NCBI RefSeq assembly: GCF_039525035.1
Contig: NZ_BAAAHE010000007.1
Span: 62,001-126,000 of the forward strand
Source: Sporichthya brevicatena
Lineage (GTDB): Bacteria; Actinomycetota; Actinomycetes; Sporichthyales; Sporichthyaceae
Direction: 5' to 3'
DNA length: 64,000 bases
In this document: piece by piece, positions 34,949 to 59,412 of the stretch
How positions within the stretch are numbered: position 1 is the stretch's first letter
Layout of the letters: the number at the start of each line of letters is the position of its first letter
Program-made: the position numbers and the translations under genes
The notes under the pieces: model-generated
The model's database searches: none
What the model saw: the letters and a program-made list of their open reading frames with translations, nothing else
Told to the model about the DNA's origin: nothing

Positions 34949-36437
34949 GCACCTGGTCCCGCAGGAGGCGCTTGGACACCTTGCCGGTCGGGGTCAGCGG
35001 GAGCTGATCCGCCGTCAGGACCCAGGTGCGGCGGGGGACCTTGTAGGTGGAGATCCGCTCGCGGGCCCAGTCGACGACCTCCTTGGCGAGGCGGTCGTGC
35101 TCGTCGGTGGTGCTGACGAGAACGGCGCCGACGTCCTGGTCGCCCGTCTCGGTCTCGACGCCGAAGACGAAGGCCTGGTCGACCTCGGCGTGCTGGACCA
35201 GCAATGCCTCGACCTCGGCCGGGGAGATGTTGATGCCCTTGGACTTGATCATCTCGTAGCTGCGGCCGACGTAGTGCAGTCGGCCCGCGTCGTCGAACCA
35301 GCCGAGGTCGCCGGTGCGGAACCAGCCGTCCGGGCCGAAGGCGGCCGTGTTCTGCTCGGGGGCGTCGAGGTACCCGGGAGTGATCGTGCCGCGGATCTGG
35401 ATGTGCCCAGTCGTCCCGGCCGGCGCGGGCGTGCCGTCGTCGCCGACGATCCGCACCTCCTGCGTCGGCAGCGGCGTCCCCTGCGTGGTCATCCGGATCT
35501 CGGGCGGGTCGGAGTACGACGTGATCGTCGAGTGACCGTGACCCTCCGTCAGGCCGTACGCGTTACAGACGTCGGTGACGCCCAGCTTTTCGATCGCGAT
35601 ACGCAGGTCCTCGGGGGTCGCGTTGGCCGTGCCGGTGCGCAGCGTCGAGACGTCCCGGTGCGCGAGGTCGGGGTGGGCCGCCAGGGCACGGGTCACCGGG
35701 GCGACGCCGTAGTAGACCGTGCACCGCTCGCGCTCGATGAACTCCAGCGCCGCGGCCGGTTCGAACCGCTCCTGCACGCACAGCGTCGCGCCGTGGACCA
35801 GCGCGTTGGGCAGGGCGTTCGAGCAGCCGAAGACGAAGAACAGCGGAAGGGCGAACCAGAACCGGTCGCCGTCGCGGACGCCCTGGCGCTCCCCGACGGC
35901 CCGGGCGGTGCGGACCATGCCACCCTGCGTGAGCGGCACGGCCTTCGGCTCGGCCGACGATCCGCTGGTGAACAGCAGCAGGGCGAGGTCGGTCTCGCCG
36001 GCCGGCGCCGACCGCAACGTCTCGCATGCACTGGAGATGTCATCTCCAGTGCATGCGGTGGAGATGACATCTCCATCGGGGCCGCCGAAGGAGTCGTAGT
36101 TCTCCGGGGTCAGAACCACGCGCGGCGTCGCGCGCGCCAGCACCGCGTCGAGCTCGGCGGGCTTGTACCAGGTGTTCAGGGGCAGGGCGCAGGCTCCGGC
36201 GGCGTGCGCGCCCAGCAGGCCGACGACCCAGCGCAGGCCGTTCGGCAGGCAGAGGCCGACCCGATCGCTCGGTTGCACGCCGGCGGCACGAAGCCGGGCG
36301 GCCAACGCCGCGGCGCGGACCGCGACCTCGCCGTAGGTCGCCCGGCCGTCCTCGGCCACGACGAACTCGCGGTCGGGGTGCGCCGCGGCGACGGCGGCCA
36401 GCACCTCCGGAGTCGTGACGCCGGGGACGGGGAACAC
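34932..36437 (-). CDS. Acyl-CoA ligase (AMP-forming) with an in-frame palindromic insert
   Basis: A 501-residue ANL enzyme starting at GTG 36437. The -10 box TACCCT is only 6 nt upstream, so the message is probably leaderless. Motifs are [18 protein letters not shown] (P-loop), [41 protein letters not shown] and [10 protein letters not shown]. Just before the P-loop, the segment [16 protein letters not shown] is encoded by a nested palindrome (36024-36075) and looks like an insertion tolerated in a surface loop. It activates a carboxylate to acyl-CoA and is divergent from the CoA transferase at 36506. Confidence 0.9.
36024..36075. repeat. Nested palindromic element inside a coding sequence
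   Basis: GCATGCACTGGAGATG (36024-36039), one base, then its exact complement (36041-36056) makes a 33-bp near-continuous palindrome. It is followed by TGGAGATG-A-CATCTCCA (36059-36075), a second palindrome repeating the same TGGAGATG core. The element lies in frame in the ligase gene at 34932-36437, in a linker before the P-loop. Confidence 0.85.
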
Positions 36438-58135: not shown

Positions 58136-58161
58136 CCGCGCCGGCCTGGGTCGGGCCGGTG

Positions 58162-58217
58162 TGAAAAAAAGGGTGACACCCCTTACTGCGCAGTAAGAGG
58201 TGTCACCCTTTCTTCAC
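58162..58217. terminator. Long hairpin, copy A of a repeated palindromic element (terminator-like)
   Basis: An almost perfect inverted repeat centred on CTGCGCAG, with arms AAGGGTGACACC(C/T)CTTACTG and an A-rich/T-rich outer part ending GTGAA/TTCAC. It lies between the amidohydrolase stop (58135) and the convergent AbiEi-like gene stop (58221), so it can end both transcripts. The same element recurs at 59363-59412 on the other side of that gene. Confidence 0.85.
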
Positions 58218-58220
58218 ACG

Positions 58221-59285
58221 TCAGGCGGCAGCCTTGGCGAACGCGGCGAGGAGCCGGGCGAGGAAGCCGGCCGGGTCGTCGCGGAGTTCCCGCCACGTCG
58301 TCCGGACGACGATGTAGCCGGCGCGGCGAAGGCGAGCCTCGCGGGCCTCCTGCCGACGCATCGCCTCGCGCGGGTCCCCGCACCAGGGGTCGGTGTACTT
58401 GAGGTAGCCGTCGACCTCGACGACGACGCGGAACGCGCGGAAGAACAGGTCGACCCGGCCGATCAGACCGAACGCGTCGAAGAGCTCGACCTGGAGTTCG
58501 GGGCGCGGGACCTGCTCCTCCTGCGCGCAGACCCAACGGGCGAGCGACTCGGCGGCCGACTCGGAGAGTCCGTCGGCGAACGCGAGGATGTCCAGCGCCT
58601 TCTGACCGTTCGTCCAGGCGGAGCAGAACGTTGCGACCGTCCGCAACTCGTCGCGGGGGACGCCGAGATGCAGTGCGCCGTCCGCGGCGATGAGGCCGTC
58701 GACCTCGGAGTCCTCGCGCATCAGGTCGACCGCGGTTCGGGCCGTCGTCGTCAGCGGGACGCCGCGGTCGACGACGACGTGCTCCGCCGGGAGCGTGGCC
58801 GGCCGGACCTCGACGCCGTTGCGCGACGTGCGGCGCCCGCGGTCGGCGCTGACCAGGTCGACGTGCCGAGGTCCTTCGCCGCGCCGAATCGCGGCGATCT
58901 CGGCGACGACCGCCCGGCTCTCCGGCGTCAGGTCCCGCAGGTCATCCACCTCTGCGGCGGCGGCCGCCGTGAGCGCCGGCGGTGCGAACGGAAGACCGTG
59001 GAGGAAGGCCGCGGTGCGATGTCCACCGACGAGGGTGGACGTCGGGGAGTCGGGGTTCCATCCCCGGATGAGCAGGGCGCCGGCGAGCTCGATGCGATGG
59101 CGTCCGCGGTCGTCTGCCTGGTCCCACCACCCCTGGAGGGTGTAGATGCCGTGCCGGAGTTCCCGCCAGATGCGGGAGGAGACCAGATCTCGGCGTTCGC
59201 GGGTGGCGACGCCGGCACGTTCGGCCTGGATCGCGCTGAAGACCAAGGCCTGGTTCTGGGCGAGGGTGAGGAGTCGTGGCTTCAT
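58221..59285 (-). CDS. AbiEi/DUF559-like protein (N-terminal antitoxin-like, C-terminal Vsr/endonuclease-like)
   Basis: A 354-residue protein. Residues about 1-60 look like the AbiEi-type winged-helix domain (R-R-D-L-V-S-S-R-I-W-R-E-L-R-H-G-I-Y-T). The middle has GGHRTAAFLHGLP and G-V-P-L-T-T-T-A-R-T-A-V-D-L. The C-terminal 100 residues contain Q-V-E-L-F-D-A-F-G-L-I-G-R-V-D-L-F and VVVEVDGYLKY, then R-R-A-G-Y-I-V-V-R-T-T-W-R-E-L, the DUF559/Vsr-like nuclease pattern with E, D and E/D residues. Such proteins are abundant in actinobacteria and tied to toxin-antitoxin or defence functions without firm proof. It has no toxin gene beside it, no window-wide operator, and hairpins on both sides. Confidence 0.8.
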   Translation of the reverse strand: MKPRLLTLAQNQALVFSAIQAERAGVATRERRDLVSSRIWRELRHGIYTLQGWWDQADDRGRHRIELAGALLIRGWNPDSPTSTLVGGHRTAAFLHGLPFAPPALTAAAAAEVDDLRDLTPESRAVVAEIAAIRRGEGPRHVDLVSADRGRRTSRNGVEVRPATLPAEHVVVDRGVPLTTTARTAVDLMREDSEVDGLIAADGALHLGVPRDELRTVATFCSAWTNGQKALDILAFADGLSESAAESLARWVCAQEEQVPRPELQVELFDAFGLIGRVDLFFRAFRVVVEVDGYLKYTDPWCGDPREAMRRQEAREARLRRAGYIVVRTTWRELRDDPAGFLARLLAAFAKAAA

Positions 59286-59362
59286 ACGCCGCAGTGTCGA
59301 CTCGCCGACCCACCGGTCCGGTCTTCCCTGTGGACGACTTCCGACGTGCGTGGCCTGTGGAA

Positions 59363-59412
59363 AAGAAAGGGTGACACCCCTTACTGCGTAGTAAGGGGTG
59401 TCACCCTTTCTT
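59363..59412. terminator. Long hairpin, copy B of the repeated palindromic element
   Basis: Perfect 23-bp arms (59363-59385 and 59390-59412), beginning AAGAAAGGGTGACACCCC, around the loop GCGT. It is nearly identical to copy A at 58162-58217. It lies upstream of the AbiEi-like gene and downstream of the DoxX gene (stop 59428), both on the minus strand. It can terminate the LLM-DoxX transcript before it reaches the AbiEi-like gene. Confidence 0.88.

Follow-up and report, generated by a model that had tools for sequence, protein, structure and literature searches.

The analyses of the 64,000-nucleotide stretch of DNA studied here (the window) and of related genomes point to a so far undescribed partnership between the AbiEi-Vsr gene family and dispersed DNA repeats. 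An earlier description of repeats around DUF559 genes was not among the matches listed in a search of the open-access literature. The explanation that we favor, with modest confidence, is a gene-palindrome system in which the AbiEi-Vsr protein would recognize a cognate palindrome and would have spread it, the surviving copies serving as terminators; recognition, cutting and copying are steps that we infer.

Twin hairpins and the gene between them

Two near-identical palindromes in the window flank a single gene, as the initial annotation had described, and its coordinates, arms and sole open reading frame agreed with our own analysis. The features of the locus, with one further doublet from elsewhere in the window, were as follows.

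58162 to 58217, no strand: hairpin 1, a doublet of two inverted GGTGWCACC units (58172–58180 and 58199–58207) with A/T tracts
58221 to 59285, minus strand: AbiEi-Vsr fusion gene, the sole open reading frame between the hairpins, 354 amino acids
59327 to 59335, no strand: first CCTGTGGA/TCCACAGG motif, upstream of the AbiEi-Vsr gene start
59354 to 59365, no strand: second CTGTGGAAAAG/CTTTTCCACAG motif, at the edge of hairpin 2 facing the AbiEi-Vsr gene
59363 to 59412, no strand: hairpin 2, a doublet of GGTGWCACC units (59370–59378 and 59397–59405)
36023 to 36075, no strand: doublet of a second dispersed palindrome, GGAGATGWCATCTCC, whose family brackets another AbiEi-Vsr paralogue of this genome, on contig C25

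Both palindromes topped the inverted-repeat list of the window. Each consists of two copies of an odd 9-bp palindrome (unit GGTGWCACC), GGTGACACC and GGTGTCACC, at a spacing of 27 nt and flanked by A and T tracts. Hairpin 1 (arms 58165–58189 and 58190–58214, 92% complementary) lies between the convergent stops of an amidohydrolase gene (plus strand, 58135) and the AbiEi-Vsr gene (minus strand, 58221). Hairpin 2 (arms 59363–59385 and 59390–59412, 100% complementary) lies between the stop of a DoxX gene (minus strand, 59428) and the start of the AbiEi-Vsr gene, and reads as the DoxX terminator. The unit GGTGACACC occurred six times in the window versus 0.86 expected from shuffles, and RNA folds of the four strands had z values of -6.2 to -10.3, well outside those of the shuffles. 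The TCCACAG or TCCACCG edge seen at hairpin 2 was also found at 20 of 84 strict doublets in the fetched loci, a few of which overlap. In a search for known RNA families the hairpin gave one match, to a microRNA family, which we took as chance (31 bits versus a gathering score of 88).

An AbiEi-like half and a Vsr-like nuclease

In its structure model (pLDDT 83.9), the window protein joins an AbiEi-like DNA-binding half to a nuclease that resembles Vsr and homing endonucleases and is of the DUF559 type. Residues 1–238 of the model were AbiEi-like, with a winged helix and a C-terminal domain (6y8q, Z 11.2, rmsd 5.1, 179 residues aligned), and also resembled Rv2827c (1zel, Z 9.2). Residues from about 238 to 354 resembled 3hrl (Z 12.8), I-Bth0305I (3r3p, Z 12.6) and Vsr (1cw0, Z 11.2); among the acidic residues of the putative nuclease, D279 and E290 were invariant and D292 nearly invariant in 16 sequences. 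In Pfam the window copy matched AbiEi_4 (E 0.09), DUF559 (E 0.025) and MTES_1575 (E 0.021), all below cut-off, while the defense library PADLOC identified it as AbiEi (E 4e-14), and AbiEi-Vsr paralogues exceeded the Pfam cut-offs for AbiEi_4 (e.g., L105, L107 and L097) and DUF559 (L098). The assignment of the gene as AbiEi/DUF559-like, made earlier from its sequence, is therefore weak in Pfam for the window copy and clear by PADLOC, by the paralogues and in the structure model. At the window locus no toxin gene (nucleotidyltransferase) was adjacent, the neighbors being the DoxX and amidohydrolase genes.

AbiEi-Vsr genes at two sister-species loci, L086:9085-10148 and L103:9042-10060, matched in two overlapping or adjacent frames, and may be broken genes or sequencing errors.

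A dispersed hairpin at gene ends

The pattern GGTGACACC-N4-22-GGTGTCACC occurred 109 times in this genome (G000, 5.23 Mb) and 82 times in one sister species (G001), and not at all in the third genome of the genus or in two genomes of a second genus; a reversed control pattern gave no matches. Across the class, 2 of 393 genomes had a closely related hairpin pattern and the other 391 had none, and the single unit AANGGGTGWCACCCNTT occurred 242 times in G000, 211 times in G001 and once in the other 391. On these counts the hairpin is a burst of one lineage. The pattern was matched neither in viral contigs nor in other sequenced genomes, collections from which records near the window were possibly absent. 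Inside called genes there were 5 of 116 motif matches in the fetched G000 DNA, a sample in which hairpin sites were over-represented. In the sister species, L102:10078-10150, L130:12207-12355 and L132:10537-10660 had three or four GGTGACACC units arrayed in tandem, repeating at intervals of about 32, 47 and 38 nt, respectively.

Genome-wide the hairpin is mostly at unrelated genes and, therefore, the two hairpins of the window prove nothing by themselves about the gene between them. One of two readings offered by the initial annotation was that the two hairpin copies moved this gene. We rejected private twin hairpins that moved the gene on three grounds: copies of the hairpin are spread over the whole genome, chance alone predicts close pairs (about 2.6 gaps as short as that of the window pair among 109 copies), and in the sister species the AbiEi-Vsr gene lies at the corresponding position with its two hairpins. 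Neither a target-site duplication nor a clean empty site was found, and the G003 orthologue of the amidohydrolase gene is in a different gene context.

To describe where the hairpins lie, the surroundings of 46 G000 copies and 26 G001 copies were fetched, with genes called by a home-made codon scorer trained on these genomes. The G000 copies comprised 30 between convergent genes, 14 between tandem genes, one between divergent genes and one within a called gene, and the G001 copies 18 convergent and 8 tandem, giving 48 convergent and 22 tandem among the 72. In 19 of the 22 tandem spacers the hairpin was closer to the stop than to the next start (median 28 nt). Most of 77 copies read CTTTYTTGAC on the right of the hairpin, with its mirror image on the left, so that the features of a bidirectional terminator were present: a stable GC-rich hairpin and a T tract (CTTTYTT) on both strands, just past stop codons. 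Because they lie just downstream of stops, mostly between convergent genes, the dispersed hairpins look like putative bidirectional terminators of uniform sequence, ordinary in their position and extraordinary in their uniformity. Uniform terminators (TUST) are known in M. tuberculosis. Bidirectional transcript ends are known in Streptomyces (PMC8269248).

Conservation between the two sister species

The orthologous spacer was located in the fetched sister DNA for 29 of the 44 G000 hairpin clusters, and 28 of the 29 kept at least one unit, a proportion to be read with the fact that for most of these sites the sister region had been picked as holding a hairpin. Ten sites picked by synteny alone (L038, L042, L046, L047, L048, L059, L060, L066, L067 and L068) all had units. 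The sole orthologous site with no unit in the sister species (L040 compared to L090) reflects either a deletion or an insertion. With 28 of the 29 sites common to both species, the comparison gives little sign of recent hairpin movement.

Differences between the species in 20 pairs of like architecture amounted to 7 of 640 positions in the arms, a figure lowered by the choice of G000 copies by exact match to 18 arm positions, 13 of 80 in the 4-nt loop and 57 of 320 in the outer stem; third codon positions differed by 12.4% in 29 gene pairs. At other sites the number and spacing of units varied, with two versus one at L060/L131 and one unit added at L047/L134, and at L042/L132 and L059/L130 four units faced four with unrelated spacers. 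Sites that keep their units yet differ in unit number and spacing suggest that the element is remodeled around sites and units that stay in place. A sister-species paralogue of the window gene, 82% identical, was bracketed by the GGTGWCACC unit in other arrangements.

Matched repeats around the AbiEi-Vsr family

Reading the flanks of the homologues revealed one repeat on both sides, gene after gene, and a different repeat for each subfamily. Bracketing was measured as the longest string common to the 350-nt upstream and 300-nt downstream flanks, with a threshold of 15 nt. The first scoring, with gene bounds from the caller, placed 12 of 21 AbiEi-Vsr genes at or above the threshold compared to 11 of 937 others; with corrected bounds this became 18 of 24 evaluable AbiEi-Vsr genes (three of the 27 in total had too little flank to score) versus 12 of 943 other genes. 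A strict scoring, which left out L140 (found by its flanks) and used controls separated by 50 nt or more from the neighboring gene on either side, gave 17 of 23 versus 4 of 251 (Fisher 1e-18), where the independent events are fewer than 23 because several of these genes are orthologue pairs of the sister species. The control totals of 937, 943, 956 and 251 differ by filter. Six of the 23 genes failed the 15-nt test; L108, a close G004 homologue, had a 14-nt match and no clear hairpin on inspection.

A scan for matched-flank genes brought up L140:3814-4719, which is an AbiEi gene (PADLOC E 3e-11) with a nuclease end (MTES_1575 E 1.5e-7, below cut-off). The homologue list had been incomplete, lacking both L140 and its G000 counterpart, and the orthologous region in G000 also has a called gene and the same repeat. 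L140 is a partly blind confirmation of the link between gene and repeat. Other matched-flank controls included L082, with another palindrome, L119, with a repeat that was not clearly palindromic, and L135, a tandem gene duplicate. In the last (L135:4925-5881) a glycine-rich repeat gene is duplicated, and the copies have a long terminator-like repeat in common.

The motif CTGTGGA/TCCACAG was found within 200 nt upstream of 25 of the 27 AbiEi-Vsr genes versus 27 of 956 controls, and in 17 of the 251 stricter controls. A named-genome scan of other actinobacteria, Intrasporangiaceae among them, yielded 19 loci, of which 16 were scored (a contig end truncated L181, and only short frames came from L198 and L199). 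Matches of at least 13 nt were found in 9 of the 16 (Fisher 1e-8) and of at least 15 nt in 7 (4e-9), a comparison weakened by its controls, the 943 genes of G000–G004, coming from other genomes. Examples were GGCGCCTGAGCAGAGAAAGG in Serinicoccus and a 32-nt string in L193, while L188, L189, L195 and L196 matched over just 9 or 10 nt; the TCCACAG motif was present in 9 of the 16 relatives.

The cassette-like pattern described for the window locus is supported in a different way, in that homologues in the family and the phylum carry their own matching repeat on both sides. The reading held out against that pattern, a plain widespread terminator, is consistent with the 109 copies, mostly at unrelated genes, but leaves a gene family with matched repeats unexplained.

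Gene-palindrome pairs

The subfamily repeats distinguished on inspection included GGGTGWCACCC, GGAGATGWCATCTCC, GCGGGATGACGTCCCGC, GCGCTTCACTCG, CTCATGCATGAG, GGCATGGATGCC and CACGAAAGCGC, among others. The GGTGWCACC palindrome was limited to the two genomes carrying a close gene. It was absent, as was GGAGATGWCATCTCC, from G002, G003 and G004, whose best homologues share 40 to 46% identity with the window protein. The 14-nt core of GGAGATGWCATCTCC had 143 forward matches in G000 and 70 in G001. CTCATGCATGAG brackets L101 and is common to the flanks of the related L106 and L113, the three coming from three species of the genus.

Palindrome and gene appear, on inspection, to diverge together, and the closest gene pairs do have a palindrome in common: the window gene and L102, L106 and L113, and L101 and L113. 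Over all gene pairs, the rank correlation between flank sharing and protein score was weak (rho 0.12) because the common TCCACAG motif and neighboring genes were also counted. For several subfamilies, copies of the cognate palindrome also lay at a distance from the genes; several other palindromes were, in the DNA sampled, confined to their own gene, so copying is either not general or was missed in that DNA.

In G003, a hairpin family CTGCCTGTC-N-GACAGGCAG had 37 copies, mostly of 46 nt with a variable middle and no T tracts (L107, L120, L121 and L123); all four fetched copies were at gene ends, and the AbiEi-Vsr gene of that genome is bracketed by a related repeat.

A uniform hairpin of G001, CCGAAGAAGTGG-N-CCACTTCTTCGG, was present in nine copies, including C1:1703761 and 2033398, and the four other genomes had no match to this pattern. 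A palindrome related to it was observed on both sides of a small gene, L082:3706-4284.

Proposed mechanism and alternatives

The gene-palindrome system would have two parts, a solitary AbiEi-Vsr gene with its cognate palindrome on both sides and about a hundred doublets of that palindrome scattered through the genome without a gene. The protein would recognize its own palindrome and cut it, whether in the form of a duplex, a cruciform or a single-strand hairpin; the cutting would lead to spread of the palindrome and occasionally of the gene too, in the way proposed for RAYTs and REPINs. Copies would be kept downstream of stops, where the hairpin and its A/T tracts would act as a bidirectional terminator, a use that would explain the lasting conservation of sites and arms after the burst.

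AbiEi and Rv2827c autoregulate by binding paired 23-bp inverted repeats in their own promoters (PMC7319586). Such binding makes recognition of the flanking palindrome plausible, and it equally feeds the alternative that the AbiEi half binds the palindrome only for repression of its own gene, and perhaps of others. Since AbiEi proteins bind inverted repeats for self-repression, the upstream repeat alone could be an operator; the dispersed copies would be further sites and the nuclease half would act elsewhere, in mismatch repair or defense. The AbiEi fold of the structure model and the conservation of TCCACAG upstream of starts are consistent with this alternative. However, the same repeat is also downstream of the AbiEi-Vsr stop, the dispersed copies are at 3' ends rather than promoters, and TCCACAG, which is common to all subfamilies, is a better candidate for a common operator. 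We regard a purely regulatory role as unlikely.

Plain uniform terminators, that is, bidirectional intrinsic terminators homogenized by gene conversion, with a gene that homologous recombination between copies brought in and that is functionally unconnected to them, would account for the 3'-end placement, the A/T tracts, the strong folds and the 109 copies, and short gaps between copies are expected by chance. They would leave unexplained why subfamily-specific matched repeats are found across genera at the AbiEi-Vsr family and at few other genes, and we consider this explanation quite improbable. A role in defense or addiction, with the nuclease attacking DNA, the chromosomal palindromes serving as decoys or self-marks and the bracketing copies protecting the gene's own locus, draws on the AbiEi family being in a defense library and on the Vsr-like fold, but with DoxX and amidohydrolase genes instead of a toxin partner beside the window copy and no match of the one hairpin pattern in viral contigs it seems very improbable.

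Comparison with known systems

REPINs are inverted REP doublets that form hairpins, occur with singlets and clusters, and are tied to RAYT genes (PMC3116915 and PMC3733652). By analogy, the gene-palindrome system would, somewhat probably, work like RAYT/REPIN with a different enzyme. The likenesses are a repeat-flanked gene, extragenic inverted hairpin doublets that are dispersed (109 strict doublets and 242 units), singlets, tandem arrays and lineage-specific amplification; the partner gene has its cognate repeat around it, as in RAYT/REPIN, for a different gene family. Unlike RAYT/REPIN, the gene is an AbiEi-Vsr fusion, the consensus has no GTAG tag, and there are A/T tracts as in terminators. 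The Y1 (HUH) tyrosine transposase PF01797 was found in none of five genomes of the order, in a search that was positive in 5 of 14 control genomes.

The AbiE type IV toxin-antitoxin protein AbiEi and Rv2827c are comparable in their two-domain DNA-binding fold and in the inverted repeats upstream, but the window locus has no adjacent toxin, the protein is fused to a nuclease, and the repeats are on both sides and dispersed. In its predicted C-terminal fold the window protein is like Vsr nucleases and I-Bth0305I; unlike these, the AbiEi-Vsr gene is alone between protein genes and is associated with palindromes.

DNA uptake sequences of Neisseria and Pasteurellaceae also form terminators (PMC1852404 and PMC2397512), and resemble the hairpin in being short uniform motifs with inverted pairs that form terminator hairpins at gene ends. 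They number about 2,000, and a motif of this kind would be expected in about a thousand copies or more and inside coding sequence as well, whereas the hairpin has about 240 units, is rare in the coding sequence of the fetched sample and is linked to a gene family. Stem-loop repeat families were common in a survey of 40 bacterial genomes (PMC2267715).

Broader implications and a further nuclease family

We tentatively extend the gene-palindrome reading to actinobacterial AbiEi-Vsr (DUF559-type) genes in general, which could be a palindrome-mobilizing class unrelated to RAYTs. Each subfamily would recognize, cut and copy its own palindrome, several such pairs would exist in parallel in one genome, and hosts would have taken the palindromes over as uniform bidirectional terminators. 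If true, this would provide a role for a common family of unknown function (solitary DUF559/AbiEi-like genes), an origin for many actinobacterial intergenic palindromes, and a second enzyme family with REP-like repeats, and so an independent test of repeat spread; it would also show selfish repeats turning into the terminators of a genome. Cognate pairs predict that each protein binds its cognate palindrome but none of those belonging to paralogues within that cell.

At L081:3486-5255 (minus strand), a DUF222-HNH gene (Pfam DUF222, E 1e-11) adjoins a GGTGWCACC doublet, a TTATCCACA motif and a GGAGATGACATC palindrome. The flanks at L076 and L134 were like that of this gene and, therefore, a second nuclease family, DUF222-HNH, may have a like arrangement.
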